Below, piece by piece: positions 1-19,953 of a DNA stretch of 22,395 nt (positions within the stretch are counted from its first letter, which is position 1; every line of letters starts with the position of its first letter). Made by a program: the position numbers and the translations under genes. Location of the stretch: the IMG/VR virus record IMGVR_UViG_3300033571_011670, positions 1-22,395 of that record; one strand, given 5' to 3'. The DNA is from a virus. The notes beneath the pieces were generated by a model, which saw only the letters and a list, made by a program, of their open reading frames with translations, was not told where the DNA came from and made no database searches.

Positions 1-3000
1 ATTAATATTATTAAAATTAAAACTGGCACACACTTTGATGACGAGACTGGATATTCCCTTGACTTTTTACCAACACAGTTTACACAGCTATCTAAAGATA
101 ACACAGCAGTTGATAGCATGTATAACATTTTGTTTGAACACACACTTCAAACAACTGCATTATACATTGACAGCAATGGTACACAAAAGCCAGTGCCGGG
201 TCCATATTCTTTCCGTAGACTATCTGGAAAAGACACAATATCTGAATTAAGCAATGGATATCGTCGTGCTTGGTTTAAGTTAAAAAGCTGGTCACTGCGC
301 TCACAATCAATCAATGGCCCTACTACTATTCAACTAGACAGCACAATGTGGCCCGAATACAACTGGGCTGTTAAGATTGCCAATGGCGTAGGCACAGTGC
401 TTTACACTGATGACTTTAAGCAAGTGGTTGATAACGTAGCAGTAGGCGCTCGTGGACGTGACATTTGCTTTAAGGTATATCACAATGGCTTACAAAACAT
501 TGCAACAGTTAGTGGACTGGGTTTTGAAACATTCTATGTACCAGTCATTGACGGCGAAGTGAGATTCGCAGTCCCAGCTACCGCAGTTGATACATTAACA
601 GTTTCAGTTGGCTTTATTAGCTTTATTGCTCGTCTAATAGAACTTAAGGATGATCCTAGATTTATAAAAATCAAAGTCAACGGTTTGCCTGTTGCTTACA
701 CTATAGATTCTACAGCATACACTGTTTCTTTGGACAGTGTAGGCGTGGCTGAAATTCAACACCAAGGCAATAACATTGATGGCGACCACTTGACTGCTAT
801 TCCTGGCATTGATTATAACCCAGAGCAGTTTGAAAATTTTGGTGAAATCAGTGTTGCTCGAGTCATCAAAGGCTTATCTAAAAATATTGCAGTAAACACT
901 GCCAACCAGCGTGAATGGATTGACTGTCCTAAATTTAAAACTCTAGATGGCATTTACATGGTTGATAATAGTGCAATGCGCTCTTCGTGGGCTAACTTTG
1001 CATTACAACCTGGACTACAAGATGTTGTTGTAGCACGTTCAGTGAGCGCCTGGCGCTGGTACCGTAAGTTTATTACCAAGCTAGAAGAAAGCAATAGAGT
1101 ATATGATATAGCGTCATCTGGTGTTGACAATGCACTTGATCGTATCTTGGGCGAACTATTACTTGGAGTAAATTACAGCTCAACTGACTCAGTATCAGGC
1201 ATGGCGTTTGTTCGAGATGGTATGCAATTGAATACAGCTATTGCCAACGGTAGTGATACTTTTGCAATTGGCTCTAGTACTCTGTTTACTAGACCATATG
1301 CAGCCGATCATGTTTATGTTTATCTTGACGGCAATTTACAATTAAAAGGTGCTGACTATACAATCAGTAACCAGCAAGTTATCTTTAAAACTGCACCAGT
1401 AACTGATAGTGTTGTTGAAATTTATTTTGCAGAAGAAACAGAAATTTATTCTGGCATTCCGGCTAGCCCTGCTAAACTTGGTCTGTCTGGCTTGTACGTT
1501 CCTCAGTTAGTTACTGAAACATGGGGACCACATTCAAAGACGTTTATCCAACGCCATGATGGTTCGCGTATCACTGCATATACGGACCCAGATTCTGGCG
1601 AAGTCAGTGACAGCAATCCTTTAAATGCAATCATCTTAGAGTTAGAAAAGAGAATTTATAATGCCTGCACTAACTCTGTTGGTGTTACTAATAGACAGCG
1701 CACATTTAGAAATTATGAAAATCAGCCGGTGACAGAATCACAGTCGCGCTCGCAATTGGAATGGTATTCAATGAACGGCATAGACTATCGAAGCCGCGCT
1801 GACTTTGATGCAAATGACTCATGGACATGGAACTATGGTGGAGCAAGTTGGAGAAAGTTATACTTGGACTTCTATGGTACATATCGTTTACATGATGCTC
1901 CTTGGGAAGCCCTAGGCTACGATAGCAAGCCAGTCTGGTGGGACACACATTATTCTTGGACTGATGCAACCAAGCGTTCTGCACTTGAATTAGCATTGTA
2001 TTTTGGTATTTTAAATGAGCCAGGCGCTGCCGCATTTACTGATCCAACATTTGCACACCCGCGCACAATGTTCCCAGTTGACAACGACGGAAATCTATTA
2101 AGCCCGTTTGATGCAGGAATTGCTTCACCAACAGCTGATGAAGCACAGCAGCCTTGGGAAATTGGTTCATTGGGTCCTGCTGAAATGGCTTGGCGCCGAA
2201 GCATAAGCGGTACATGGAGTAATGTACTCCATGCGCTGGATAGCTATGACTTGGCAAACGAGTTCTTTGACAGTTCAATTAATCCGTTTATTCAAACAGT
2301 CAACAACAACAGCATTGCCCCTAAAGGCACTGGCAGCATTGCCCCTGACCAGTTCTTGTACAATCGTACACTAATTGGTATTGGCGCAGTTATATTTGAA
2401 GGTTATAGAGAGTTTAATCTATTAGGCGAAACACCACTAAATGACTTGTTGGCCATTGGCACCAAGCTAGAGTTCAGTGTTGGCGGCTTTACCGACGGTG
2501 ACATTACACTAAAAATGCCGTACTCTAAGTTCCAAGACAACGAGTATGTGCCTGATAACGATTTTGGATTAACACTAAGCAAAGGCATACCGAAAGAACA
2601 GTTACGTTATACATCAGTTCGTATAGAAAAGGACGATGTTGGATTCCGTGTGTATGGTTACGATCCAAAATATAGATTTTTTAAAGTGCTGACTCCAACA
2701 GCAAATGCACTATCAACTGGTTATCCTACAACACGTAGACAGTTGGTGACTGGCTATGGAACTTTTGTTGAATATCTAAGTTGGAATCCAACACCAGTCA
2801 TGGTACCTTATGGTTCATATGTTGCAAACAAGCAAGACCTTATTACATTATTAATGGGGCTAGGCGAATACCAAACGCAACAAGGTCTAGTGTTAGACAG
2901 TTTGAACAATCGCGGCACTGTTACAAATTGGAGACAAGTGGCAATTGATGCAATATCTTGGAACGAAGAACAGTGGGGAGAAGAACACTTCTGCGTCGTG

Positions 3001-6000
3001 GGCGTTGCAACAGCAGACGGTTTAAAATTTCATCATGAAATGGGCGCACTAAGCAGATTAGATGCTGACCTTGGCCGCACAGGTAAAGTCTTGTATGCTA
3101 ACGGACGTTCAGCAACAGCCAACGAGTTGTTGATCACTAGAGACTTTGAAAAAAATATTGATAAAATTGCTCCACTAACAAGCGAGCAAATTGTATTTGT
3201 TAATTTTGAAGTACAGTATTACGATCATGTATTCTTTATCAGCAACAAAACCAAATTTGGCGATTTGATTGCTGACTTACAAACAGATAACCGATTACAA
3301 GACCTAACTATTTCTGGCCGTAGAACTTACAATTGGACAGGCCGCCCATCTGCGCTGGGTGTAATACCACAGCAATACAGTACCTTGCCAGGATTTGACA
3401 CACTGGTCAATGACATTGTTGCAAGTCACATGCCTGAACGAGTAGCATTTGACACATTAAAAACTGACATTGCTCGTGGCAACGTAGTACCTTCAAAGAA
3501 AAGTGTTATTGCTGACATTGTGCAGGATAGTTCAAGCTCATATCTATATCGCCAAGGTCTACAACGAGCAGTGGGAACAAACTTGGCCATTGATGCACTG
3601 TTCAGAAACAGAAACATTGATATTCCAGGGAACGAACAAGACGTAGGCGTTAATGAACAATGGATGTTTAACACTGGAGAGTTTGGCAATTTATCAAATA
3701 AGAAAATTTGGGAAATTGAACTTCGCAAAAAGGATCTAACAAACAACCGTCAAATTGTTCGTTTCAGAGATGACGCACTTGGCGTTACAGATCTAAGAAG
3801 TGACAACATTATTGATATTGTAGGCAAAGCAGACCCTCGCTGGGTATCACGCCCAAGTAACTACACATTTGGAACAATCAGCAGAGACTCTATTGACAAA
3901 AACTATAGCAAGTCTCAGAATTGGTTGCCAAGTGCAGGTGTAGCCGACTTAGTCAAAACTGATATTGAAATCATGTATCTAGCAGATCTTGCATTTGACA
4001 GTTTGATTAATGTAGAACGTTCTAAGTTATTGTTCGCTACACAGGCCTTTAGTAGATTCAATGACTACAATACTGGAGATCATGTATGGAATCAAGGAAA
4101 ACTGTACAAGGCCTTGGTACGTATTATTGGTTCTAGCACAAGTGCGTTTGAAAGTGCTCAATGGTCTGAAGTAACTGTTTCAGGATCAATGTTACCATCT
4201 ATTTGGGTAAGCGATTATATCTTTACATCGCCACAAGGCTACGGATGGAATGTGTTACAAGCGTTCCCTCCAGCCTACATTGAAGAAATTTGTCCTAATG
4301 CAATCAACACAGGCTTGAATGAAAGTAAAGCATCGTTTGCAAATCCACATAGATTGTCAGAAGGCGACTCGTTTATTATTGCTGGTACAAATGACGGAAA
4401 CTACAACTCAATACACAAGGTAAAAGCAGTAGTTGATGATTACAACGTATTGATTGAGGCTCGCAGTACCAGTAACGCACCTATATACAATGCAGTTGGA
4501 TTTAAATTAAGCTCGGTTAAATTTACAACCAACGAAGAATTTTTAAATTCTAACTTGGTATTCAGCGCAGGTATGCTGGCTTATGTTGACTATGGTGACA
4601 TTGAAGGCAATTATACAATTTACACATTTACTGGCAACGGTACAGTAGATGCAGATCAGTACACAGTTGAAAATTACAACGGTACCATGATTGACAGCGG
4701 TTCAATTTATCAAGTTCAATTGTTTGATTATCAAACAGAGAATCTGATTCAGACTGTTGAAGTATTTGATCCATATAAAGGTTTAACCATTGACGATGTT
4801 GCACAGTACATTGACTATAAGCAGTTGCCAGACCCTGCAAACTATAATGTTAGCGAGTTGGGTGTGTTTGATGAATATAGTGCGAAACCCTGGGGCGACG
4901 AGCAAGTTGGTACACTATGGTGGGACTTGAGCAAGGTACGTTATATTGAGTATGAGCAATCTGGTGATTTGCAGTACCGCGCTAACCATTGGGGTGAACG
5001 CTTTGCCAACAGCGAAGTTGTTGTATACGAGTGGGTATCAAGTACCGAGTTGCCGGCAATAGACACTGAACCAGATGCATATTTGGACACCAGCGGTAAT
5101 GCTGAGGGGCAAATCAGGTACAGTGAAATTACCACAACTGATGAAGACTCTGGCGCAACAACCACTGTCTATTACTACTGGAAGCGTAGACCTTCTAATG
5201 TTCCTGTTGGCGGAAATAGACCATACTCAGCAGCCGCAATTGAATCTGTATTAAACAATCCAGATGCCAACGGTATTGCATGGCTAGCACCTATTGACAC
5301 CAATGCATTTATTATTGCAAACATTGCAGGCATGTTTGGTAACAGAGATAAAGTAATTTTACGCATTGAACAAAACTTGAACCCTGAACAGGTGCATGTC
5401 AATAGTGTACTGGTAACAGAAAATGTTGATACCATAGATGACTTCTTGTATCAAAGACTGTCATCTAGCATAGTAGGTCGAGACAACTACAGAGAAGCGT
5501 ACAACTTGCTAGAGTACACTGTTGGTACAAAGTATTTCAAAGGCGACTACGTATACATTAAAAATAACGGAGTCAACGTTGCTACCAATGAGTATGGCAA
5601 TGATGATTATCCAATCCTGCAATACCTTGACGATACTCGTTACGATATTCATACTGTCAGACGTGCAACACTTGCTGACCATAAAATTTATGTAACAATT
5701 GCAGACTTTACTGCAAGCGGTCTTGCTAAGGATATTAAGAAAAGAAATATCACCAAGAGTGCTGCCAGTGCCTTGATTAAAGATCCGTATGAAAACACAA
5801 ACGGATATTATGCAGTGGTAAACACTCGACGCAAGGTACCTGATCCTGGCTTGCATCCGCTACGCCGTTACGGTAATGCGTATGCACCACGTCCACAATC
5901 ATGGTTTAAAGATGTTATTGCGGCCCGCAGAACTCTTATTGTAGCAGCCAATGATTATTTGTTAAACATTGATACAGTAAGCAAGCCAGACTGGGACAGA

Positions 6001-6839: not shown

Positions 6840-7466
6840 ATGAACACAACATCTTTACCAGTAAAAATTACAACTCACATTGTAATCACAGATGCTGACA
6901 CTGGAGAAATCCTGCGTGAAGGCCAAAACGCTATTCATCAGGAAAACATGAGCCAAGTCCTAGCCACTGCGCTAGCCCGCGGTGCAAACAGTTTCATCAG
7001 CGAAATGCATTTTGGTAAGGGTGCAAGTGTAACAGCAATTGACGGATCCGTTTCCTATAGAACCCCAAATGTTTTTGGATCAAACGCAGACTTGTATAAT
7101 CCCACTTACTTTACAGTGGTTGATGCACAGGACTTGAATAATCCAGATTCTGACAATAATAATTTGACAGTAACGCATACAACAGGGACAACCTATAGCA
7201 ATACTGTGGTAACAGCAACATTAGATTATAGTGATCCTGTTGCAAGCGACAGTGTTTTTAACATTGTTAACAGTACCGAGGGCAGTTTAAATGCAACTAC
7301 AAGTGTAGATGGCGAGATGGTTTTTGATGAAATTGCATTGAAAACAAAAGGAACCGCAGGTTTAAACACAGGGAGTCTGCTGACGCATTTTATTTTTCAC
7401 CCAGTTGAAAAGGCTCAAAACCAGCGTATACAGATTGTATACACGCTAAAAGTTCAAGCTGGTTAA
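6840..7466 (+). CDS. Probable phage virion structural protein (208 residues)
   Basis: This is probably a minor tail, baseplate or fibre-associated protein. The N-terminal part reads HIVITDADTGEIL, then GQNAIHQENMSQVLATALA and FISEMHFGKGAS. I recall this arrangement (DxxTGE, NAIHxxNMS, EMxFG) from conserved hypothetical structural proteins of marine T4-like phages. The rest is rich in Thr, Ser, Asn and Val, as expected of beta structure. There is no signal peptide or membrane helix. It lies 32 bases after the giant gene and 52 before the next, so it appears to be one unit of the structural block. No convincing Shine-Dalgarno precedes the ATG: the upstream bases are a CTAAATA promoter candidate and TCATT, which would suit a leaderless or nearly leaderless late transcript. 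Structural assignment rests mainly on context. Confidence 0.75.
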   Translation: MNTTSLPVKITTHIVITDADTGEILREGQNAIHQENMSQVLATALARGANSFISEMHFGKGASVTAIDGSVSYRTPNVFGSNADLYNPTYFTVVDAQDLNNPDSDNNNLTVTHTTGTTYSNTVVTATLDYSDPVASDSVFNIVNSTEGSLNATTSVDGEMVFDEIALKTKGTAGLNTGSLLTHFIFHPVEKAQNQRIQIVYTLKVQAG

Positions 7467-7518: not shown

Positions 7519-8592
7519 ATGGCATACGAAGTAAACAAAGCAAACGGTGATGTGTTAGTTAACCTAATTGACGGGGAAATTGACAACACATCAACCAGTT
7601 TAAACCTATTGGGCAAGAATTATCTTGGCTACGGCGAGCTGATCGCTGAAAACTTTGTTCACCTGCTAGAAAACTTTGCAAGTAGCATTGAACCAATCAG
7701 CCCAGTAACTGGACAACAGTGGTTTGACACAGGCGAACGCAGATTAAAGTTAAACACAGATAATTCAAATTGGAAGACTATTGCGTTTTTGGCAGCCCAA
7801 AATTCAGTCCCGCCAATTGGAACTTCAATCCGTGGCGACTTCTGGTACGATACTGCCAATAACTCTATTAAAATTTACACAGCTGATCCAGCTTTACCAG
7901 GCACCAACGGCAACGGTTGGATGAACATTGGTGCATTCCAAGGCAATCGCGAAACTGCAACAGGCATGGCATTTTTGGACTTGTTGGGCACTGACAGTGT
8001 ATTGCATAAGGTAGTTGCAATGTACGCCATGGGCGTATGTGTTATGATCATTAGCTCAGACGCAGACTTTACTATTGCGGCTTCACATGCTGTTCCTGGC
8101 TTTGGCGAAATTGGCAAGGGCATCAACATGAATACCACTGGCAATGATACCAATGCACTAAATCCAAATGCATTTAAGTTACGTGGTATCTCCATGGAAG
8201 CTGAGTTTGCTGACGTTGCAGAGATTTATGTAGGCGATGCTAGTTATGAACCAGGCACGTTGGTAAGTCTAGGTGGTGACGCTGAAGTAACGCAAACAAC
8301 AGAATTCGGCGATACAAACATTTTTGGTATTGTATCAACTCGTCCAGCTTACCTGATGAATGCACGACAAAAGCGTGAAAAGAATGCACTGCCAATTGCA
8401 GTAGCAGGTCGTATTCCAGTCAAGGTAAAAGGCACAATCAAACGTGGAGATCGTTTAGTATCAAGTGATATTCCGGGTGTAGCACAGGCTGCACCAGCTG
8501 ATGTAGCAAGTTGGGCCATTGTTGGCCGTAGTTTAGGAAACTTCAGCGGAGAAGGCATCGGTAAAGTCGAAGCAACAATCGGGGCTCGTTAA
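7519..8592 (+). CDS. Phage tail or fibre protein with conserved N-terminal module and a C-terminal fibre domain
   Basis: A 357-residue protein, probably part of a tail fibre or adhesin assembly. Residues 11-58 (VNLIDGEIDNTSTSLNLLG, then NYLGYGELIAENFVHLLENFA) match a module I recognise from many tailed-phage fibre proteins. Two copies of a 'G-x-x-W-[FY]-D-T' motif follow: GQQWFDTGERRLKL near 65-78 and GDFWYDTANNSIKIY near 106-120. The C-terminal part (about 225-357) contains EFADVAEIYVGDASYEPGTL, IFGIVSTRPAYLMN and VAGRIPVKVKGTIKRGDRLVSS. This pattern resembles C-terminal phage fibre domains including peptidase-G2-like (intramolecular chaperone) autoproteolytic domains, but I cannot identify catalytic residues, so self-cleavage is not claimed. 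The start is supported by an AAGGA ribosome site with good spacing and a promoter candidate. The next gene begins four bases after the stop. Confidence 0.85.
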   Translation: MAYEVNKANGDVLVNLIDGEIDNTSTSLNLLGKNYLGYGELIAENFVHLLENFASSIEPISPVTGQQWFDTGERRLKLNTDNSNWKTIAFLAAQNSVPPIGTSIRGDFWYDTANNSIKIYTADPALPGTNGNGWMNIGAFQGNRETATGMAFLDLLGTDSVLHKVVAMYAMGVCVMIISSDADFTIAASHAVPGFGEIGKGINMNTTGNDTNALNPNAFKLRGISMEAEFADVAEIYVGDASYEPGTLVSLGGDAEVTQTTEFGDTNIFGIVSTRPAYLMNARQKREKNALPIAVAGRIPVKVKGTIKRGDRLVSSDIPGVAQAAPADVASWAIVGRSLGNFSGEGIGKVEATIGAR

Positions 8593-8596
8593 TTAA

Positions 8597-11500
8597 ATGA
8601 CGACCAAACGCTACATTGTTGCGCTCGACAAAGGCGTTGACTATAACACATTTTGGACTCAAGTCGAGTCTGCCACAGCTGGCATTGCTAACATTCCAGA
8701 TCGTCCAGTTACGATTGCTAATCCTCGCTGGGCATTTGAGCGCATTTGTGAATATGAGTTAACTGATGCTGAAGCAGAGCAGTTACGCAATGACCCTAGA
8801 ATTGCCGCAGTTGAACAACCAGTAAGCGAACTGCCTTATGTTAAGATTGTTTATAATACAACTCTTGACAAGAACTTTGATAAAACAACTTCTAGTACTG
8901 TAGACAATGTAAATTGGGGCCTGATACGTCATAGTAATACATCAAATGTCTATGGTACAGGAACAACTACCTCTTCAAAATATACATATGACCTAGACGG
9001 TACAGGCGTTGATGTTGTTATTAACGATTCTGGCATACAAGCCGATCATCCCGAATTCACTGGAAGACTTAATCAAACTGGTGTAAATTGGAATGCACTA
9101 GTTCCAAATTATTCTGATAACAGCTATTCTGATACGAACGGTCACGGCACACATGTGGCTAGTACTGTTGCTGGTAAAATATATGGTTGGGCCAAAGGTG
9201 CAAATATACTTTCTTTAAAATATGCAGATACCAATGCATCTGGTGATGTACTAGATTGTTTTGAAGCATTAATTTTATGGCATACAAGTAAAACAAACAA
9301 TAGACCAACTGTAATGAATATGAGTTGGGGATTTGGATTGTCATATGAATGGTTTGTAGCAAATAATTTTATACCCTCCGGCGGCAGATATCAAGGAGTT
9401 AATTGGTCTTCAACATTAGCCGCAGATCGGCTAGCCCGAGGCATCATTGCATTACCTAATCTAGGTCCTTTTATTACCATCCCATATGATTCTGCGGCGT
9501 ACAATGCCGCATTAGCTGAAGTAATTGATAATGGTATTATTGCAGTTCGTGCCGCAGGAAATAACGGACATAAAATTGATATATCAGGCGGAATTGACTA
9601 CGACAATTACTTTGTAACTACACCTGCGTTAGATCAATTCTATTATCACCGAGGTGCAAGTCCAACAGATCCTCGAGCTATTGTTGTTGGCAATTTAAAT
9701 TCAGTCACACATAGTAATGGGAAAGATCAAAGATCGGACACTTACGGCTCGTCTGCTGGTCCTAGAGTTGACATTTGGGCCGCAGGTACAGATATATTAG
9801 CCGCTTGTAGCAATACAAATATAATGAGTGCCCAGCCTTACCAACATGGGAATACTTCTTTTAAACAAGTAAATATTTCCGGTACATCAATGGCCGCACC
9901 TCAGGTTACTGGTATGATTGCATTACATTTGCAACAACAACCTTTAACAAATAATAAGTCGTCTGCTAACTCTGAAACAGTAAAACAGTGGTTGATTTCA
10001 AACTGCCTGACTAATCAAATTCAAGATAGTGGTACTGTTACATCATACACGGATTTTAAATCTTTGTTAGGTGGTCCAAATCGTATTGCCTACATCAATC
10101 CAGTAACAACTACACCACCGCCTGCAACATACACACTAACTGTAAACAAAGCTGGTAACGGTAACGGCACAGTAACAAGCTCACCAGCAGGTATCAATGG
10201 ATCAGGTACAGCAACATTTGCCGCAGGCACGGTTGTTACATTATCTGCAACAGTCCCATCAGGCAGTACATTTGCTGGTTGGTCAGGTGCCGCAACAGGC
10301 ACAGGCACAGCGACCGTTACCATGAACAGTAACAAAACAGTTACAGCAACATTCAATGCAGTTGTAGGACCACCTACATATCCACCAGCAGGTACTTTCC
10401 TAAGATTTGAATGCCAGGGCTACGACAAATACAGCGTTTATGCCAACGGTACGGGCGGCGAGTACAGCACATTAACCGAAGCCAACAGCGCATATTGTAA
10501 TTACGTTCCACCACCTACTTACCCACCACGCGGTACAGTTATCAGCGAAGGTTGTGTCCCAAATACATATACCTACCGTATTGTCAAGGCTGATGGCTCA
10601 GGTGGCACATATAACGTTGACACCCGTAATAGTACACAATGTGGATATGTTCCACCGCCAGCAGCCGGCACGCTATTAAGAACTGCTTGTATTGGATTTA
10701 ACCAATGGGGATATTATGCCGACGGCAATGGTGGCGAGTATAATCAAATCATCAAAGAAAATAGTGCCGAGTGTGGATATGTACCACCCCCTCCAACAGT
10801 TAAAACTGTTCCACGTAAAAAAATCACCGCCGAAGACCTAAACAAATTGGTATCTGATGTCAATGAATTGTTTGGCGATACCCATGCCGGTCAAGGACCA
10901 TCTGATGATCCTCAAACGCAAGATGACATTCGCTGGGGCTGGGGCGGCGATAACGTTGAGTCGGTACAACCAAAGCAAAAGCTAACAGCCGCTTTTACAA
11001 ATGAGTTGGTTAACCGCATTAACCTAAGCACATATCGTACAAACAGTAACGATCAAGTACTTGTTATTGTAGAACAAGGTGACAAAGTAACAGCAGACTT
11101 TTTCAATGCCGCAGCAACTCTTTTGGACTCTGCAAGAAATTCTCGCAATGAAGTTGATCCAGCACTGACATCATTATCTACAATTCGAACAGTTACAAGC
11201 ACAGTAACCAATTGGAGACACCAATTAGAAAACGTAGTTGAATTTGACTTTGAAGGTTACGAAAGTGCTCGACACTTTTTCAATGCCGGAGGCGATATCC
11301 GTTTGGCATTTTCAATCACTGACGGTTTTGGTGCTGGCTACCACACTTGGCGCGGAATTTTTACGGACCAGGGCACACTCAGATTAAACGTTGAATCAAT
11401 GCAAAGTTTGAACAACCGCGGTATCAGTCAAGATATTGGATTCTCAGAATTGGCTCTCGGTGAGCGACTGTTGTATACCAGCCCTGCAGGTGGTGGCTGT

Positions 11501-11881
11501 GGATATGGTGGTTATGGCGGATATGGTGGTTATGGCGGATACGGGGGTTACGGTGGTTACGGAGGCTATGGCGGATATGGAGGCTGCGGTGGTTACGGAG
11601 GCTATGGAGGCTATGGAGGATATGGAGGATATGGAGGCTATGGAGGCTATGGAGGATATGGCGGTTACGCTTCAAGTCGAGTAAAAGTTTATGGCAACAT
11701 TGAAAACAATCGCTTACGCTTACGTACATTGCTGGACCATGTTGGTTTAGGCACCAAAGTAACAGGCACAATTGCAATGACAGTATCTGTTTCTCAGCCA
11801 TCTACAGTAACAGAAAACGGGGTAACGTTGGCCTTACCAACTCCTATTATTTCGATTAGTACTCCCTGGCAAGAAGTATAA
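8597..11881 (+). CDS. Subtilisin-family (S8) protease fused to phage adhesin-type modules
   Basis: A 1094-residue mosaic. Residues 1-77 resemble an I9-type inhibitory propeptide (RYIVALDKG, then FERICEYELTDAEAEQLRND and AAVEQPV). The S8 domain spans about 105-500 with a complete catalytic set: Asp144 (VVINDSGI), His183 (NGHGTHVA), oxyanion Asn322 (AAGNNG) and Ser431 (SGTSMAAPQVTG). Residues 511-587 are a divergent InlB B-type repeat (YTLTVNKAGNGNGTVTSSPAG, ending TVTATFN). Residues 594-738 hold three cysteine-paired repeats separated by Pro-rich linkers. From 740 comes a phage structural region (KKITAEDLNKLVSDVNELFG, then ESARHFFNAGGDIRLAF), interrupted at 966-1023 by a Gly-Gly-Tyr array before the C-terminal beta segment. 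No signal peptide is seen, so host secretion is unlikely; assembly into the virion and attack on host surface proteins, or processing of virion proteins, are the likely roles. The protease call is firm; virion location is inferred. Ribosome site is weak. Confidence 0.9.
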   Translation: MTTKRYIVALDKGVDYNTFWTQVESATAGIANIPDRPVTIANPRWAFERICEYELTDAEAEQLRNDPRIAAVEQPVSELPYVKIVYNTTLDKNFDKTTSSTVDNVNWGLIRHSNTSNVYGTGTTTSSKYTYDLDGTGVDVVINDSGIQADHPEFTGRLNQTGVNWNALVPNYSDNSYSDTNGHGTHVASTVAGKIYGWAKGANILSLKYADTNASGDVLDCFEALILWHTSKTNNRPTVMNMSWGFGLSYEWFVANNFIPSGGRYQGVNWSSTLAADRLARGIIALPNLGPFITIPYDSAAYNAALAEVIDNGIIAVRAAGNNGHKIDISGGIDYDNYFVTTPALDQFYYHRGASPTDPRAIVVGNLNSVTHSNGKDQRSDTYGSSAGPRVDIWAAGTDILAACSNTNIMSAQPYQHGNTSFKQVNISGTSMAAPQVTGMIALHLQQQPLTNNKSSANSETVKQWLISNCLTNQIQDSGTVTSYTDFKSLLGGPNRIAYINPVTTTPPPATYTLTVNKAGNGNGTVTSSPAGINGSGTATFAAGTVVTLSATVPSGSTFAGWSGAATGTGTATVTMNSNKTVTATFNAVVGPPTYPPAGTFLRFECQGYDKYSVYANGTGGEYSTLTEANSAYCNYVPPPTYPPRGTVISEGCVPNTYTYRIVKADGSGGTYNVDTRNSTQCGYVPPPAAGTLLRTACIGFNQWGYYADGNGGEYNQIIKENSAECGYVPPPPTVKTVPRKKITAEDLNKLVSDVNELFGDTHAGQGPSDDPQTQDDIRWGWGGDNVESVQPKQKLTAAFTNELVNRINLSTYRTNSNDQVLVIVEQGDKVTADFFNAAATLLDSARNSRNEVDPALTSLSTIRTVTSTVTNWRHQLENVVEFDFEGYESARHFFNAGGDIRLAFSITDGFGAGYHTWRGIFTDQGTLRLNVESMQSLNNRGISQDIGFSELALGERLLYTSPAGGGCGYGGYGGYGGYGGYGGYGGYGGYGGYGGCGGYGGYGGYGGYGGYGGYGGYGGYGGYASSRVKVYGNIENNRLRLRTLLDHVGLGTKVTGTIAMTVSVSQPSTVTENGVTLALPTPIISISTPWQEV
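10376..10810 (+). repeat. Three tandem cysteine-paired repeats in the protease protein
   Basis: Three units of about 45-50 residues (protein residues 594-738) share the pattern G-T, a Cys about six residues on, a Gly-Gly-x-Tyr in the middle, a second Cys and Y-V-P-P-P. Each unit has exactly two cysteines, suggesting one disulfide or metal-linked pair per unit. Linkers are Pro-rich (PPTYPP, PPAAG). The units have diverged at DNA level, so the duplication is not recent. Confidence 0.8.
11492..11665 (+). repeat. Gly-Gly-Tyr repeat array inside the protease/adhesin gene
   Basis: About 58 codons encode nearly uninterrupted GGY triplets, with Cys in two places (GGGCGYGG at the start and GGCGGY mid-array). 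The underlying DNA is a roughly 9-base pattern with variable third positions (ggt, ggc, gga; tat, tac). Glycine-rich arrays occur in host-range adhesins such as T2/S16-type gp38, which is the nearest functional analogy, though no homology is claimed. The array interrupts a beta-rich C-terminal region. Confidence 0.9.
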
Positions 11882-11942: not shown

Positions 11943-12287
11943 ATGGATAACCGCCTAAATGATGCATTGGCATTCGCCAATTATAGACTAACGCTACAAG
12001 TTCAGCGCCAAAATATCGAAGCACGAGTAAATGCCGCTTTGATTGTGTCCTATCAAAACGCAATTTTCAAATCCACTCAAACACTAATCACATTTGTGGG
12101 GCTCAGAGCTATTCGGGCAGAAAAGTTGCTGGTTGAAGACAACAGCGGTAATGTCATCCAAATTGAAAATCCAAATGAGTTTTTAACAGCATTGCTAACT
12201 GCTTATGATTCTGCCATGGAACTAAAGCAACAAGAATTGCAAAAATTAAAGTCAGCACGTAGTACTGCTAAAATTGTAGGGCTGTAA
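11943..12287 (+). CDS. Small conserved phage protein, unknown function
   Basis: A 114-residue, mostly helical, hydrophilic protein without signal peptide or membrane helix. A central LLVEDNSGNVIQIENPNEFLTALLTAYDSA precedes a charged, probably coiled C-terminal helix (ELKQQELQKLKSARSTAKI). I recall similar small proteins (an 'ExxDN-xxxPIEIEN' core plus a long helix) next to tail genes of marine T4-like phages, with no known function. It follows the 61-base gap that carries the inverted repeat, and its stop is one base from the next start, making it the first gene of the downstream run. The ribosome site is weak (TGGA about eight bases upstream). It may belong with the structural genes or with the cassette. 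Confidence 0.75.
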   Translation: MDNRLNDALAFANYRLTLQVQRQNIEARVNAALIVSYQNAIFKSTQTLITFVGLRAIRAEKLLVEDNSGNVIQIENPNEFLTALLTAYDSAMELKQQELQKLKSARSTAKIVGL

Positions 12288-13864: not shown

Positions 13865-14839
13865 ATGAGCGAGTTAAAATTTGAGCTACGTCGTCGAGAA
13901 AAAAAGCGAGCAGAATTTTGGTGCGTGTATTATGACGAGTATTCGGGCAAGATTAAATCAATTGAACCAGGTAACCAACAAGTTGCAGGTGCGCTTGTAG
14001 TTAACTATGCCCGCGTTAAGAAAATTCTCGCAGGCGAAATTAATCAAAATGACTATAGGGTATCACTTAATGAAAACTTAGGTGTACTTGACTTAGTTGA
14101 CATCAAAAGACCCCTTGAGTATAAAAAGAAACAAGTGTACAGGGGCTGGCTGTCATCAGCAGAAAGCGACAGTTATGCACCAGCACCGCTACGTGCAACA
14201 CTTTTTGTGGACACTGGGCATATTCGATTTGAAGCAAGTCGAGTGTGGACTACAAAGATCAAGCAAGGCCTAGAAAGAAATACTATCAATGATAGTATCC
14301 CATTCTTTATCAGTGACGTAGAAGACCCGCACAACTTATTTGGCCACGATGAAATTAGCCTGGCTGAAGTAATTGAACGTGGCTTTTGGGAAAAGCGATT
14401 ATGGGCATTTATGGATCATGGCATTATACAGAAAATACTGTATCATGGACAAGAGATACGCATCAATATGCCCCCAGTTGCCGACGGACTTAATTTTGTG
14501 AGAACTCAACAGCACTCGCCTTTTTCTGAAATCATCGATGAACGCACAATCCTTAGTAGAACAGGACCCGGAAAACACCTTAGTGTGTATTCGAAAAATG
14601 GCTCGTTATGGGCGCAAAGCCATTACTCTAAAGGATGTGCTATTGATCAGATAACCGGAAACTTATCAGTGGCAGTTCTATCGCAACCCGATCCAGATTT
14701 TTTTGTAGCATGGGCCGAATTGCCTGCACTAATGCTTAGACAAGAACATCCATTTGAATTGATTTCAAATTGGCCAGACCATGTGGTCCCAAGTTTGTTA
14801 TATAAAGCTAACAACTTAGATATAGGAGTGCTCCAGTGA
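13865..14839 (+). CDS. Unrecognised phage protein, 324 residues
   Basis: I assign no function. The start is taken at ATG 13865 (MSELKFELRRREKKRAEFWCVYYDEYSGKIKSIEPGN), two bases after the upstream stop; an in-frame ATG at 13823 would lengthen it by 14 residues and overlap the previous gene by 40 bases, which is less typical here. The opening 'E[LF]RR...WxVYYDxxSGxIxSIxPG' resembles conserved proteins I recall near glycosyltransferase genes in marine T4-like phages. The central region (ATLFVDTGHIRFEASRVWTTKI, then FFISDVEDPHNLFGHDEISL) and the rest look like mixed alpha/beta globular sequence with no membrane helix. It ends in a GTGA overlap with the first of three paralogous genes. It could be a structural or adhesin accessory rather than an enzyme. 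Confidence 0.75.
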   Translation: MSELKFELRRREKKRAEFWCVYYDEYSGKIKSIEPGNQQVAGALVVNYARVKKILAGEINQNDYRVSLNENLGVLDLVDIKRPLEYKKKQVYRGWLSSAESDSYAPAPLRATLFVDTGHIRFEASRVWTTKIKQGLERNTINDSIPFFISDVEDPHNLFGHDEISLAEVIERGFWEKRLWAFMDHGIIQKILYHGQEIRINMPPVADGLNFVRTQQHSPFSEIIDERTILSRTGPGKHLSVYSKNGSLWAQSHYSKGCAIDQITGNLSVAVLSQPDPDFFVAWAELPALMLRQEHPFELISNWPDHVVPSLLYKANNLDIGVLQ

Positions 14840-15807
14840 AAACCCCAATTACAGAATTTGACGTAGTCTTTATCAGCTACGATGAACCAAACGCAGATGA
14901 GAATTATGCCGACTTATTAGAAAAGTGCCCATGGGCCAAACGCAGTCATGGCGTATACGGCAGCGATGCTTGCCACAAGGCCGCAGCCAAGCTAGCCGAA
15001 ACAGAACGTTTTATCACAATTGACGCTGACAACAAGGTTCGATCTGACTTCTTTGAAATGGAATTAGATTTAACAAGATTTGATCGCAGTGATGTATTAA
15101 GCTGGAGTGGCAAGAATGTTATTAACGGACTTGTGTACGGCAATGGTGGCGTTAAACTTTGGCCAAAGAAAGTTGTTGAGCAAATGCGTACACACGAAGC
15201 AGTTGATGGCGGCGCAGGCGCTGTAGACTTCTGTTGGGATATTCACTATCATCAATTAAACAACATCTACAGCGATGTATTCAATAACGCAACTCCGTAT
15301 CAAGCATATCGTGCAGGCTTCCGTGAAGGCGTTAAGCTGGCTCTTATTGATGGTCGTCCCATGGACTGGAGACAAATTGCCGCTCGTAACAATTTTAAAA
15401 ATCACCGTCGCTTGTTAGTATGGATGAGTGTTGGCCAAGATGTACAAAACGGATTGTGGGCCATGTATGGCGCACGACTAGGCTGCTACTTGACTAACCT
15501 GCGCAAAGACTGGGATTACAAATTGGTAGCAGACTTTGAATGGCACAATCAATATTGGGCAGAAACTGTTATGCCAATGTTTGCTGGCGACGAGGAAACT
15601 TGCCCAACTTCAAAGTACTCATGGAGTAAAACCAAGCTCATGGCAGAAACTGTAAAATTAGGTAGAATTTTGCGCCAAGACATACAGCTAGACATTGCCG
15701 AGCTTGACGAAGTTGGTAGCAAATTCTTCAAAGCCAGTTTCTTTAATCCACATCGTTTAGCACCGCATATTAAAGAAAGTGATGTTGAACAGTTTATTGC
15801 TGAGTAA
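14836..15807 (+). CDS. GT-A-like transferase paralogue 1
   Basis: A 323-residue member of a phage family resembling GT-A glycosyltransferases, first of three tandem copies. The start is GTG, overlapping the previous stop by GTGA, with AGGAG at 14824-14828. Key features: FDVVFISYDEPNADENY at the N terminus; FITIDADNKV with Asp63 and Asp65 as the metal/donor DxD candidate; WSGKNVINGLVYGNGGVKLWP at 90-110; GAVDFCWD; and AYRAGFREGVKLAL. It shares all of these with the third copy, and with the second only the framework. Predicted cytoplasmic, no membrane segment. The family is known to me mainly as hypothetical or putative glycosyltransferase proteins in marine T4-like phages; no activity has been shown that I can cite. 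Sequence drift among copies suggests different acceptors or donors. Confidence 0.7.
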   Translation: MKTPITEFDVVFISYDEPNADENYADLLEKCPWAKRSHGVYGSDACHKAAAKLAETERFITIDADNKVRSDFFEMELDLTRFDRSDVLSWSGKNVINGLVYGNGGVKLWPKKVVEQMRTHEAVDGGAGAVDFCWDIHYHQLNNIYSDVFNNATPYQAYRAGFREGVKLALIDGRPMDWRQIAARNNFKNHRRLLVWMSVGQDVQNGLWAMYGARLGCYLTNLRKDWDYKLVADFEWHNQYWAETVMPMFAGDEETCPTSKYSWSKTKLMAETVKLGRILRQDIQLDIAELDEVGSKFFKASFFNPHRLAPHIKESDVEQFIAE

Positions 15808-16682
15808 TGCTAGACATATTTTTCATCTCAATGGGCGAAGAAGGCAGCGAAGCCAATTGGCAACGCTTGCTTCAACTTGCGCCCACAGCCAAGCGTGTTG
15901 ATAACGTTAAAGGAATTTACGAAGTACATCGTGCATGTGCTCAATTAAGCACAACAAAAAACTTTTATGTAGTAGACGCAGACGCCTGGGTGCTTGATGG
16001 TTTTAAATTTCACTGGGAACCCGATGCCAAAACATTACACTGGGGAATCCCAGAACCAGAGTGTGTGTTGGTCTGGCCAAGCCGTAATGCAGTAAATGGT
16101 CTTGAGTACGGCTACGGCGGTATTAAGATGTTTCCGCAGGCACCGTTTTTAGAAGATAAAGAATGGCGCATTGACTTATCTACCACAATTGGCCGAGCAA
16201 CAGTTAGCAAAGAACAAGTGGGTTGTGAAACACGATTTAATGCCACACCCGAATCGGCTTGGATTGGAGCATTTCGTGAATGTGCTAAACTTGCATCATT
16301 GAGCATGATCAAGAGTCGTGTTCGTAAAGCCACTAACGCTAGAAACGAAGAATTACAACGGCTAACAGAATCTGTTGCCGCAGAAACAAATTGGCCCTTA
16401 GAGAAACGTGCAACACATCGCAAGGTGCAAACTGTACTAATCACTGACCGTTACAGCCACGAATCAAACATTTATTCTTACTGGGCAGAAATTGAAGAAT
16501 GTAGTCGTAGAAGATTACATTGGGCCACTGTGGGTTGGGAAGCTCACAATGGAAAGTACAGCGTGTTAGGCGCTCAAGCTGGTTCTAAGTTTGGTTTACA
16601 ATACAGTGACGATTTAGAAATGCTTAATAAAATCAACGACTGGGATTGGTTGCGAGGAGAATTTAAAAATGTCAATGTTTAA
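15807..16682 (+). CDS. GT-A-like transferase paralogue 2 (divergent)
   Basis: A 291-residue paralogue of its neighbours, starting at a TAATG junction that shares one base with the upstream stop. It opens LDIFFISMGEEGSEANW where copies 1 and 3 have DEPNAD, and keeps Asp57 and Asp59 (YVVDADAWV) but has Ala in place of the Asn after DAD. The NAVNGLEYGYGGIKMFP and AWIGAFRECAKLAS segments are conserved, whereas the VDFCWD of the other copies is replaced by LSTTIG. It also has its own insertion before the C terminus (about residues 170-220, Arg-rich, KSRVRKATNARNEELQR) and ends LHWATVGWEAHNGKYSVLGAQAG. This version looks closest to the form I recall from other marine phages. Likely fold is GT-A, but donor, acceptor and activity are unknown. 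Confidence 0.7.
   Translation: MLDIFFISMGEEGSEANWQRLLQLAPTAKRVDNVKGIYEVHRACAQLSTTKNFYVVDADAWVLDGFKFHWEPDAKTLHWGIPEPECVLVWPSRNAVNGLEYGYGGIKMFPQAPFLEDKEWRIDLSTTIGRATVSKEQVGCETRFNATPESAWIGAFRECAKLASLSMIKSRVRKATNARNEELQRLTESVAAETNWPLEKRATHRKVQTVLITDRYSHESNIYSYWAEIEECSRRRLHWATVGWEAHNGKYSVLGAQAGSKFGLQYSDDLEMLNKINDWDWLRGEFKNVNV
16654..16659 (+). promoter_or_regulatory. Shine-Dalgarno GAGGAG for the 16669 gene
   Basis: GAGGAG ends nine bases before ATG 16669, inside the end of the second paralogue. It supports this ATG, rather than the in-frame ATG two codons later, as the start, giving a 14-base overlap of the two genes. Confidence 0.65.
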
Positions 16683-17643
16683 TGTCAAGCCAAAGGCACA
16701 ACAAAATACAAGAACTACGTTTGCAGATATCCCTGTGGTTTTTTTAAGTTTTGACGAGCCAAACGCAGACGCCCATTGGAATCTGTTACAAGCTGTAGTT
16801 CCGCATAAACGAGTTGCTCGTGTGCATGGCGTAAAAGGTTTTGATGCCGCTCACAAAGCAGCCGCTGATAGTTTTCCAATGAGTGATTATGTTATCACAG
16901 TTGATGCAGACAATCAAGTCGATCCCGAGTTTTTTACTAAGCGTTTGCCACCAAACATGGATGGACGAGTTAGCTTTACTTGGGGCGGCCGCCAAGTTAC
17001 AAATGGTCTTATGTACGGCAACGGCGGATTAAAGATGTGGAGCACTGAACATCTTGCCAACATGAAAAGCCATGAGCTTGCAGATGAAGAACGTGATGCT
17101 GTGGACTTTTGCTGGGACTTTCAACGCTATAAAGAATTGCCAGGATGCTGGAGCAATGTACACACAAACGGAAGTGCTTATCAAGCATTTCGTGTGGGCT
17201 TTAGAGAAGGCGTTAAGTTGTCAATGGAACAAGGCCAACCACTAGCATTCAATGAATGGTCAACTAAAATGCATGCCGCAAACTATCAGCGCCTGCTGAC
17301 ATGGATGACAGTTGGTAAGGACATTGAACATGGAATCTGGAGTGTGTACGGAGCAAGACTTGCTGTCAAGATGTTGCAGTATGATAATTTTAATTTTGTA
17401 AACATTCGAGATTATGATTGGTTTCAAGATTTCTTTAACATGCACAAGGATGCTGATCCAGTTAAAGGCAGCAAGAGTCTAGGCAAGCAAATCAGCAATG
17501 GCCTAGGTTGGATTCTTCCAGACTTTGACGCAGAACAAAGTGCATTTGTAAAGCAAATACAACTGCACCCCGACAAGCCTTTAACATATGAAGATGTTGA
17601 ATGGCGCACAAATTTAAGTTTATATGGATGGTTCCGTGGATAA
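16669..17643 (+). CDS. GT-A-like transferase paralogue 3
   Basis: A 324-residue paralogue closest to copy 1. It has a 20-residue N-terminal extension, then IPVVFLSFDEPNADAHW, the DxD candidate Asp79 and Asp81 (YVITVDADNQVD), WGGRQVTNGLMYGNGGLKMW, RDAVDFCWDF, AYQAFRVGFREGVKLS and a C-terminal TWMTVGKDIEHGIWSVYGARLAVKM that aligns with copy 1 (VWMSVGQDVQNGLWAMYGARLGCYL). The conserved DEPNAD, DADN and VDFCWD blocks in copies 1 and 3 suggest they retain a shared chemistry. Strong ribosome site at 16654. The following methyltransferase-like gene overlaps its end by about 20 bases. Predicted soluble. The transferase assignment comes from the GT-A-like DxD context; the substrate is unknown. Confidence 0.7.
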   Translation: MSMFNVKPKAQQNTRTTFADIPVVFLSFDEPNADAHWNLLQAVVPHKRVARVHGVKGFDAAHKAAADSFPMSDYVITVDADNQVDPEFFTKRLPPNMDGRVSFTWGGRQVTNGLMYGNGGLKMWSTEHLANMKSHELADEERDAVDFCWDFQRYKELPGCWSNVHTNGSAYQAFRVGFREGVKLSMEQGQPLAFNEWSTKMHAANYQRLLTWMTVGKDIEHGIWSVYGARLAVKMLQYDNFNFVNIRDYDWFQDFFNMHKDADPVKGSKSLGKQISNGLGWILPDFDAEQSAFVKQIQLHPDKPLTYEDVEWRTNLSLYGWFRG

Positions 17644-18802
17644 AAATACAGAATTAAGATCAGCGTTATTGTACTTTGTTGACGAGGCAATTGGATACCG
17701 TCACAGTATTCATTTTCTTCATCGTTGGATTGAAACAGGCGAACAGTCAGAGCTTGAAGGATTGATTCTTGAGGTGGGTCGAGAAAACTTTGTTGACCTC
17801 CAGCCGCTGATCAATACTGTAAAGGATCCATCTGATTTAAGTGGAATAACAGCTCTTAGGAATTTTATAAACATCAATGGAATCTGCAATTATGACAATC
17901 CAGAAATCAGAATTACGCCACCACCTGATTTAAACAACAGTGTTCCTGAATATGTTGAAGGCAATGCCTGGGCGATGCATTCATGGGTAGAAAAAAATAC
18001 TCATAGAAACATAACACCATTCTATTCGATTGCAAAGGCATACGGAATTTTTCAAGAGGCTCGAGAAGATTTTGTCAAGATTGTTGACCTTTTAGAACTC
18101 ATGTTTGGTAAAGGCACTACATTATTTTCAGCAGTAAAGGACAATGATATTGTACTGTTAGGGAATTTATTATCTAACTACTACCCAACACACAGCGTTC
18201 ACATTAATAAACTGGCACAGTCGGTTGCTGAGAACCCAGATCTAAATTGGAAAGATGCACTAAGCAGAAATCAAATCCGAAGCAAGCTATGGCTTCTTGA
18301 TCGATTAGACGCACTTAAGATACTACCGAAGCCTCGCAAGTATGCTACAGACGACTCTTCTAATGTATTGCTGGTTGGTGGTTGGGTTGGTATGCTAAGT
18401 TTCTTGGCTGACATGAAAGGCAAATTCCTTGACATAGTGACCAACATTGACATTGATGAGTCAGTTCATGCCGCATCTAGTGATTTAAATTCTGTAACAA
18501 AGTCAACATTTAGAACCAGCAACAGAGATGTAAGAAAGCTCAGCATTGAGAAGTACAACAAGCCAATTGTAATAGATACCATTGTTGAGCATTTTACAGA
18601 CCACGGCGAGTGGGTAAAAACACTGCCAAAAAAAGCCATGATTGTACTACAAGGCAATGACATGTTTGATGTTCCTGAGCACGTGAACTGTCATAGAACA
18701 TTAGAAGAGTTTGTTGCGTCATGCGGGTTAAATAACATTATCTGGAGCGGGGAACTAAATCTCTACAAATGTACCAGATACATGGCTATTGGTACCACAT
18801 GA
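17624..18802 (+). CDS. SAM-dependent methyltransferase-like protein (class I, C-terminal domain)
   Basis: A 392-residue protein. The C-terminal half looks like a Rossmann methyltransferase: motif I at 247-256 (NVLLVGGWVG, with the GxxG-type loop somewhat atypical), an acidic strand end TNIDIDES near 274-280, then IVIDTIVEHF and a C-terminal LQGNDMFDVPEHVNC and SGELNLYKCTRYMAIG. I recall the 'HINC...SGxLxLxxYxRFMxIG' ending from methyltransferase-like proteins of marine phages. The first 240 residues are helical and unassigned (RHSIHFLHRWIETGEQSEL; later helices around residues 135-225), perhaps substrate binding. The ATG at 17624 overlaps the previous gene by 20 bases; an in-frame GTG at 17636, with GGATGG just upstream, is an alternative start only four residues shorter. 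It ends in ATGA with the dioxygenase gene. Methyl acceptor unknown. Confidence 0.65.
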   Translation: MDGSVDKNTELRSALLYFVDEAIGYRHSIHFLHRWIETGEQSELEGLILEVGRENFVDLQPLINTVKDPSDLSGITALRNFININGICNYDNPEIRITPPPDLNNSVPEYVEGNAWAMHSWVEKNTHRNITPFYSIAKAYGIFQEAREDFVKIVDLLELMFGKGTTLFSAVKDNDIVLLGNLLSNYYPTHSVHINKLAQSVAENPDLNWKDALSRNQIRSKLWLLDRLDALKILPKPRKYATDDSSNVLLVGGWVGMLSFLADMKGKFLDIVTNIDIDESVHAASSDLNSVTKSTFRTSNRDVRKLSIEKYNKPIVIDTIVEHFTDHGEWVKTLPKKAMIVLQGNDMFDVPEHVNCHRTLEEFVASCGLNNIIWSGELNLYKCTRYMAIGTT

Positions 18803-19323
18803 TATTATTTGACAAACGATTTAAAAGATACGATAATTTTCGAGTTGATTTAGATAGGTTGCGGGCAGAGACGTACACACTCATGTACGATTATCCAAAC
18901 GGAGTCTATCATACTCAACGGTCGTTGCAAACAGATGGATCCAATGATTGGACTGCAGGAATAGGATCAAAACCTGACATCGACGAGTCTATTTGGGACC
19001 AGCTACACCCTGATCTAGTAGGCACCTGGTGGGAGGAATTTTTTGCCTCGCTGCCGTTTAAAGTGTATCGCGCCAGATTACTGACTCTTCAACCTAGAAC
19101 ATGCTACAGTATACACTCGGATAGAACGCCTAGAATACATATAGCAATTGATACCCATCCGCAAGCAAGATTTATTTTTACTAATCCGCCAGCTGTGTAT
19201 GTTATACCACCAGATGGTCATGCGTGGTGGGTTGATACTACAAAAGAACATTCGGCTATGAATGGTAGTTTAAAGCCTAGAATTCATTTTGTTGCATGCC
19301 TGGACAACACTGACCCAGATTAA
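18799..19323 (+). CDS. Fe(II)/2-oxoglutarate dioxygenase, aspartyl/asparaginyl hydroxylase-like
   Basis: A 174-residue single-domain oxygenase. The start is set at ATG 18799, forming an ATGA overlap with the methyltransferase-like gene; a longer in-frame reading from 18769 would extend 30 bases into that gene. The core shows the family layout: YSIHSDRTPRIHIAIDTHPQARFIF, with His106 and Asp108 as the HxD iron ligands and Arg112/His114 following; then HAWWVDTTKEHSAMNGSLKPRIHFVACL, with His151 the distal iron ligand and Arg161 the expected 2-oxoglutarate-binding arginine. These residues support an active enzyme that hydroxylates, or otherwise oxidises, a substrate with release of succinate and CO2. 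Related short proteins are common in large marine phages. The substrate could be a peptide residue, amino acid or lipid-linked group; nothing in the sequence decides this. Confidence 0.75.
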   Translation: MILFDKRFKRYDNFRVDLDRLRAETYTLMYDYPNGVYHTQRSLQTDGSNDWTAGIGSKPDIDESIWDQLHPDLVGTWWEEFFASLPFKVYRARLLTLQPRTCYSIHSDRTPRIHIAIDTHPQARFIFTNPPAVYVIPPDGHAWWVDTTKEHSAMNGSLKPRIHFVACLDNTDPD

Positions 19324-19343: not shown

Positions 19344-19953
19344 ATTAGAAGTTATTCATACCTGCGCAGAACACTTTAGTAGTATAGAACCTTTATACAA
19401 AGTTTTTCTGGAAAAAATAGCAAGTGATCCATTGCCAGCTTTGGTTAATATGGGCTATGAATTTCCAGCAGGGCTAGGATATCTTGTTACCAACAACTCA
19501 CGTTGGACTGAAAAAACAGGCCGCATTGACTTGCTATTAGACGATGGAAAAATAGTAGGAGTTAGTGCAGTAGAAACAAGCTCACTTTCAACAGTGTTTG
19601 GCAGCGGTGGAAATCGTTGTTGGCTACTGCCAAAGTATCGAGTTCATAACGAGATTACAAAGTACCTGTTGACGTCAAATCTACAGTGGTGCACAGATCG
19701 TGGTCATGTAGGAATGATATTAACTTTCAATGACTACAACAAGTGGATCTACAACACAATTAAAAAACGAGTAAAAGGACAAGCTGGTGCATTAGGTCCA
19801 GTCTGGAGTAACTGGTGGAACGATTGTGTTCCTTTTGAACGTCAGCTGAATGTTTTTAATACACCGCAGTGGGCAGTGGTAAAGCCAATAGCCGGCATTG
19901 AAGCTGTGCTTGATGGCATGAATAATATTGATAGAGAATTTGGAACAGCATGA
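19339..19953 (+). CDS. GNAT-like N-acetyltransferase 1 (tentative)
   Basis: A 204-residue protein with a GNAT-like layout. It opens with a helix-rich segment (CAEHFSSIEPLYKVFLEKIASDPLPALV), then GRIDLLLDDGKIVGVSAVETSSLSTVFGSGGNRCWLLPKYR, which looks like the beta hairpin, and NEITKYLLTSNLQWCTDRGHVGMILTF, which looks like the helix and strand around the acetyl-CoA site of GNAT proteins. The usual R/QxxGxG/A loop is not clear, so the family call is tentative and acyl-CoA use is unproven. There is a possible start-sequestering hairpin at 19324-19343. The stop overlaps the next start by ATGA. With a second GNAT-like gene just downstream, the pair flanks the PP-loop gene. Substrate unknown; N-acylation of an amine in the cassette's product is one reading. 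Confidence 0.5.
   Translation: MTLEVIHTCAEHFSSIEPLYKVFLEKIASDPLPALVNMGYEFPAGLGYLVTNNSRWTEKTGRIDLLLDDGKIVGVSAVETSSLSTVFGSGGNRCWLLPKYRVHNEITKYLLTSNLQWCTDRGHVGMILTFNDYNKWIYNTIKKRVKGQAGALGPVWSNWWNDCVPFERQLNVFNTPQWAVVKPIAGIEAVLDGMNNIDREFGTA

Follow-up and report, generated by a model that had tools for sequence, protein, structure and literature searches.

A subtilisin-like protease on a conserved phage anchor module: an exchangeable enzyme that may act on host-surface proteins

What does a subtilisin-type (family S8) protease do among the structural genes of a phage? The question is raised by IMG/VR virus record IMGVR_UViG_3300033571_011670, a fragment of 22,395 bases that was analyzed at its full length and is called the window here. 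One of its open reading frames (ORFs), at 8597–11881, joins an S8 domain to an InlB-type repeat, cysteine (Cys) repeats and a C-terminal module which we refer to as the anchor. With a probability of roughly 60%, we read its product as a dispensable, exchangeable protease which the virion bears on its tail and which cleaves a protein of the host surface. Related contigs are designated by L or G numbers below, and all features of the window are collected in Table 1.

The S8 enzyme and its anchor

The initial annotation, made from the DNA letters alone, had proposed a complete S8 triad plus oxyanion Asn, and its numbering (D144, H183, N322, S431) proved exact. The four residues stand in canonical order within the motifs VINDSGI, NGHGTH, AAGN and SGTSMAAP, and they are kept among 72 distinct S8 relatives from viral contigs, whose alignment delivered the residue counts of Table 1. 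Profile searches recovered both the S8 domain and the InlB-type repeat named there, the former with 101 bits against a curated Peptidase_S8 cut-off of 21.8, the latter with 35.4 bits against 23.6 (Flg_new_2, PF18998, the divergent InlB B-repeat). By sequence search of the PDB, the nearest solved structures are proteinase-K/aqualysin-type subtilases (best E 6e-20), and Foldseek matched a low-confidence model of residues 1–505 to proteinase-K-like enzymes (E 4e-14). As judged from sequence, the S8 enzyme appears intact and under purifying selection.

The N-terminal ~80 residues are kept across the whole phage S8 family. They look like an I9 prodomain, in line with the propeptide expected by the initial annotation, although they are not filed as one: the window misses the Inhibitor_I9 (PF05922) gathering score with 17.1 vs. 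21.2 bits, while the best E-value in the family is 0.005. The model of this region has the order beta-alpha-beta-beta-alpha-beta, with a predicted local distance difference test score (pLDDT) of about 61–82 over residues 1–70. As had been noted before, no hydrophobic signal peptide is visible at the N-terminus (MTTKRYIVALDKG...).

The order S8, InlB, Cys repeats and anchor was also found in L002, L031, L045 and L051, and without InlB in L055. Since this architecture recurs in independent contigs, the fusion ORF is not a chance product. In L044, L047 and L048 the Cys repeats are the only addition to the anchor. The glycine-rich (GGY)n array had been taken for an adhesin module; we rejected this, as it is a disordered, low-confidence loop within the model of the anchor and is present in all alleles. 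An unnamed module of ~200 amino acids (aa; SGQFIGWI and similar) without Pfam match recurs at differing places of anchored proteins, namely at residues 1–220 of ORF 5844–8378 in L057, at about residues 630–830 in L051 and also in L027.

The anchor itself belongs to no Pfam family, matches no PHROG at a useful E-value and has no fold match in the PDB; among viral library structures, clear relatives are limited to three phage proteins without informative name. When the anchor of the window was compared directly with isolated phages by tblastn, no match resulted; only the diverged intermediate L271 reached gp360 of phage PA5oct (2e-4 in a search of the entire phage collection), with 27% identity along a core segment. 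A profile built just from the anchor (A4) gave gp360 25 bits, and one with intermediates 89 bits, where the printed E-values refer to a set of 11 proteins. The order of genes points in the same direction: giant, 208-aa, 357-aa and anchor gene of the window correspond to gp355, gp357, (gp358), gp359 and gp360 of PA5oct (Arenbergviridae), where gp359 and gp360 overlap stop to start. All five PA5oct proteins bear an electrospray ionization tandem mass spectrometry (ESI-MS/MS) tag in its record, and gp358 is annotated as T4-gp10-like baseplate wedge/tail pin, so that the assignment to a phage tail region holds. Unlike the window's protein, gp360 comprises 406 aa, lacks a protease and has a different C-terminus. 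PA5oct homology and gene order, the strongest evidence here, suggest that the fusion is a virion protein, and we infer that its place is at or near the baseplate.

Exchange of the protease

In sister contigs, whose neighboring genes are mostly 85–95% identical to those of the window, a short form of the anchor gene was found. It encodes 347 aa, starts with MAIQRKKITAEDL... and equals the window's protein from residue 740 on. The C-terminus is thus self-standing and the protease an N-terminal addition. Our census covers 39 contigs with the locus, 35 of them distinct. The anchor has no extension in 20, S8 in nine, the Cys repeat only in five, InlB and Cys repeat only in two, a beta-repeat extension without protease in two and a different enzyme in one; where S8 is missing from the anchor, the contig is a fragment, and the genome may encode a protease elsewhere. 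On a tree of four neighboring genes from the 39 contigs, at least seven changes in the presence of S8 are required, all seven being forced by well-supported branches, and L055, which has S8, hardly differs in the four genes from L057, which has no protease.

The same sisters bear on a role in maturation, i.e., in processing tail or head proteins of the same phage while particles assemble, which had been offered as an alternative by the initial annotation. Such a role would suit an intracellular, zymogen-like protein encoded in a virion operon, and phages do use maturation proteases such as the S77 prohead protease. However, sister phages ~90% identical in the neighboring virion proteins have the anchor without protease, a separate S77 prohead protease is encoded in 4/4 related contigs examined (among them G002, which has no S8 match), and S8 is replaced by a protease of family S53 without matching change in the neighbors. 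As near-identical virions lack the protease and the prohead protease is encoded separately, we consider maturation unlikely as the main role.

This replacement has sharp borders. Between the sisters L002 (S8) and L003 (S53), the DNA agrees as far as the stop codon that ends the 357-aa gene and is nearly identical again from the first InlB-repeat codons (10133), with nothing in common between both seams. The N-terminus of L003 (=L037) matches mature kumamolisin over 335 residues (E 2e-35). A second S53-bearing contig, L128, was found outside the census; its N-terminus likewise matches mature kumamolisin, and its S53 is 75% identical to that of L003 and sits on a diverged anchor, next to 208-aa and 357-aa genes of 55–64% identity. 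We therefore rejected the idea that the S53 allele stems from an assembly chimera. S8 and S53 belong to one fold superfamily, clan SB, yet they are distinct families with different catalytic residues. Like kumamolisin and the other sedolisins (MEROPS S53), both phage copies keep all four catalytic residues (Glu78, Asp82, the Asp of SGD and the Ser of GTSA). In contrast to kumamolisin, they are fused to InlB, Cys repeats and anchor and lack the ~190-residue prodomain: Pfam detected no Pro-kuma_activ, and the start of the protein coincides with that of the mature enzyme. In two scans of the viral collection S53 occurred only in L003 (=L037) and L128, in both cases on this anchor. Searching 50,697 phage records with one query sequence, which could miss a distant S53, gave no match, and neither did four long related contigs, in a search run without positive control. 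The nearest cellular match, from an Acidobacteriaceae metagenome-assembled genome, is only 31% identical.

An intact second protease at this place also bears on the idea that the S8 fold is a structural relic that serves only as rigid spacer or binding module. Enzyme folds are re-used by phages as binders, but with catalytic residues invariant in 72 relatives and a replacement that is again an intact protease, such a relic is highly improbable.

Besides loss and replacement, the S8 domains seem to have moved between lineages. The anchored ones form one group among the 72 relatives (support 83); thus the simplest account is a single old fusion, with losses and transfers later on. The S8 domain of L132 is 59% identical to that of the window, compared to 25% for the giant protein, 35% for the 357-aa protein and 29% for the anchor, which indicates a transfer. 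The S53 domains of L003 and L128 point the same way, as they are more alike (75%) than the 208-aa and 357-aa genes beside them. Furthermore, the enzyme varies unevenly along its length: identity of the window to L002 amounts to 96% in the prodomain and 88% in the anchor, whereas residues 246–310 reach 40% and residues 331–420 reach 44%, and DNA identity within the gene runs from 93% over 56% to 88%. Residues 246–310 show the lowest conservation in all comparisons. They separate the NMSWG motif from the oxyanion Asn motif and, by subtilisin homology, probably adjoin the expected substrate cleft. Given this placement, with a substrate-binding strand on one side and the oxyanion Asn on the other, a change of specificity seems plausible.

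Both the frequent swaps and the hypervariability near the cleft would suit any arms race, including one in which a particle-borne protease attacks the fibers of competing phages or host-secreted proteins instead of the receptor layer. Our data do not separate such interference from host-surface cleavage; we regard it as rather improbable. Taken together, the protease is best read as a dispensable, exchangeable cassette on a conserved anchor.

A proposed role on the tail

We propose that the S8 protein is made as a zymogen with an I9-like prodomain and without signal peptide, folds and presumably cleaves itself. Through its C-terminal anchor it would become part of the particle, with the periphery of baseplate or tail pins as the likeliest site. 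Carried outside on the tail and activated by prodomain removal, the protease would cut a host-surface protein, be it an outer-membrane protein, a pilus or a surface layer, at adsorption. Because this target would differ between hosts, the protease would be repeatedly lost, re-acquired, re-shaped at its cleft or replaced by S53, while the anchor stays. The baseplate position, the autoprocessing and the host-surface substrate are the steps which we infer; cleavage of a host-surface protein, put forward by the initial annotation, gains support as the likeliest reading.

The layout has a well-known parallel. Polysaccharide depolymerases of tailspikes are variable enzymes on a conserved particle-attachment domain. 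The present proteins resemble these exchangeable depolymerases in layout, but they combine a protease with an anchor of unrelated fold that has no PDB match. We give even odds to the broader proposal that the anchor is a dedicated port of jumbo phages at which S8, S53 or no protease are recombined at fixed seams, with a hypervariable cleft, so that surface proteolysis would be a host-range trait subject to cassette exchange like that of depolymerases.

S8 relatives outside the anchored group allow a further comparison. In one scan, at least 536 viral contigs matched the S8 alignment, the best 80 matches being mostly stand-alone proteins of ~520 aa with prodomain and S8. Directly upstream of S8 relatives, 17/53 genes match one tail-fiber family and other leaders belong to tail-fiber or virion families; of the genes that directly follow, most hits to a single family (8/36) go to the baseplate wedge/tail-fiber connector phrog_677. 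The Kyanoviridae cyanophages S-H38, S-CREM1, P-SSM2 and S-SCSM1 (gp144) likewise encode prodomain and S8 with intact triad, 28–33% identical to the window over most of residues 1–500, within a baseplate/tail-fiber cluster. They differ from the window in being stand-alone or, in gp144, in having a long lectin-like C-terminus, and they have no anchor module. In gp144 the catalytic residues are intact and the protein is labeled '(virion protein)'; mass spectrometry of CsCl-purified S-SCSM1 particles detected 45 proteins (PMC9602691), in close, not exact, agreement with 47 such labels in the record. Agrobacterium phage Atu_ph07 encodes gp329, again S8 with intact triad, at the edge of CDS (coding sequences) 284–329, which its authors describe as a virion-protein-rich cluster (PMC6102473). 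Unlike in the window, gp329 lies far from gp176, the 357-aa homolog, and is fused to other repeats. The rarity of tail proteases as stated by the initial annotation is thus not supported, given the number of viral contigs with S8 relatives and the S8 genes in cyanophage tail and baseplate regions.

These relatives touch on the reading of the protease as an intracellular effector, which would act late in the host cytoplasm, the anchor only tethering or co-expressing it. The missing signal peptide and the stand-alone S8 versions of many phages would agree with this, and patchy host-directed peptidases have been proposed for jumbo phages (PMC7824862). On the other hand, the window's S8 is fused to an anchor whose homolog is a virion protein detected by mass spectrometry, the genes stand in a tail-fiber/baseplate neighborhood in unrelated phages, and the S8 protein of S-SCSM1 carries its virion label. 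The anchor makes an intracellular role less likely, an argument that is weaker for stand-alone forms, and we consider this role doubtful.

Several points weigh against a tail-borne protease with a host-surface target. The window's virus is uncultured, no protein of its phage clade has been detected in a particle, and the match between anchor and gp360 is remote, though syntenic. L027 (ORFs 921–4097 and 4094–5761) and L134 encode protease and anchor as separate overlapping ORFs; thus covalent anchoring is not universal. Most S8 relatives in other phages are stand-alone proteins of ~520 aa, which may or may not belong to the particle. The S8 model is poor, as AlphaFold reached a pLDDT of 56 for residues 1–505 (10 sequences). 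Finally, the case for a host-surface target consists of the analogy to depolymerases and the dispensability of the enzyme.

Source phage, further observations and significance

Of the window, 21,873 bases are identical to part of a 45-kb contig. Related long contigs of up to 285 kb encode a T4-type gp23 capsid protein, and gp23 of the 285-kb contig is ~62–64% identical to those of the jumbo phages Phosso, GAP32, CBB and PA5oct. Photosystem D1/D2 (Photo_RC) genes were absent from nine records of the window's relatives, and transfer RNAs from five loci. The source is best read as a T4-like jumbo phage.

Table 1. Features of the window on the fusion ORF and around it
Feature	Position	Strand	Evidence
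Giant virion protein, 5' end cut by contig edge	1..6807	+	phrog_10938 'virion structural protein' 7.6e-145; blastp PA5oct gp355 1.6e-42
208-aa virion gene	6840..7466	+	blastp PA5oct gp357 1.5e-22, Atu_ph07 gp177 3.5e-39
357-aa virion gene directly upstream of protease	7519..8592	+	blastp PA5oct gp359 3.5e-28; homolog Atu_ph07 gp176
S8 protease-InlB-Cys-anchor fusion	8597..11881	+	open ORF, ATG start, 1094 aa
I9-like prodomain, residues 1-80	8597..8836	+	Inhibitor_I9 match in 14/25 family members
S8 catalytic domain, residues 135-470	8999..10006	+	Pfam PF00082 7.4e-29; 3.6e-32 at DNA level
Catalytic Asp144 codon	9026..9028	+	invariant in 72/72 relatives
Catalytic His183 codon	9143..9145	+	invariant in 72/72 relatives
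Hypervariable stretch, residues 246-310	9332..9526	+	13-40% identity to all anchored relatives; prodomain up to 96%
Oxyanion Asn322 codon	9560..9562	+	invariant in 72/72 relatives
Catalytic Ser431 codon	9887..9889	+	71/72 relatives; the exception is a copy cut by the contig end before Ser
InlB-type repeat (Flg_new_2), residues 513-588	10133..10360	+	Pfam 1e-8
Three repeats of ~44 aa with two cysteines each, ends (C)GYVPP or NYVPP, residues 593-735	10373..10801	+	sequence
C-terminal anchor module, residues 740-1094	10814..11878	+	equals complete short-form protein from its fifth residue
(GGY)n array inside anchor	11501..11661	+	9-nt tandem repeat, 17.9 copies
Conserved gene of 114 aa, downstream of anchor	11943..12287	+	beside anchor in most anchored contigs

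Further downstream, the window contains three paralogous ORFs in a row (14836–15807, 15807–16682 and 16669–17643) with a mutual identity of 25–40%. They belong to a cluster of glycosyltransferase-like genes that is conserved on the downstream side of the anchor, and the third is weakly Glycos_transf_2-like, below the cut-off. Auxiliary-type genes follow at 18769–19323 (Asp/Asn beta-hydroxylase-like, just below the cut-off), 19950–20900 (weak Asn-synthase/QueC likeness) and 21526–22395 (fatty-acid desaturase, 4.9e-13).

Other members of the wider family show different designs. The 285-kb relative (IMGVR_UViG_3300043409_000928) encodes an S8 protein with an apparent signal peptide and a long autotransporter-like C-terminus (L117, 38221–39144, minus strand), as well as a third, stand-alone S8 (L126) that is 32% identical to that of the window. 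In L009 (9998–21553) and L010, an S8 domain of 37% identity stands at the start of an ORF of more than 4,100 aa with immunoglobulin-like, cadherin-like and FG-GAP repeats, close to a remote counterpart of the window's gene order. An anchored protein of L266 (383–2806) bears a C-terminal extension that matches the major tail protein family phrog_1696 (2.4e-27).

Annotated S8 genes exist in the tail regions of other phages, and the kind of protein is consequently known. In the open-licence literature searched, we found neither the fusion of S8 to this anchor nor the exchange of S8, S53 and no protease at fixed seams, and likewise neither a prodomain-less phage S53 nor the hypervariable S8 stretch. 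Nor did the literature and collections searched contain any previous description of a phage S53.

Attack of phages on the host surface has been described almost wholly via sugar- and peptidoglycan-degrading enzymes; in a review of barrier-breaching enzymes the words protease, proteinase and proteolytic are absent (PMC6116005). With its many related viral contigs, the S8 enzyme family is common, and the natural S8, S53 and no-protease alleles on one anchor represent a ready experiment on the role of a tail-borne protease.

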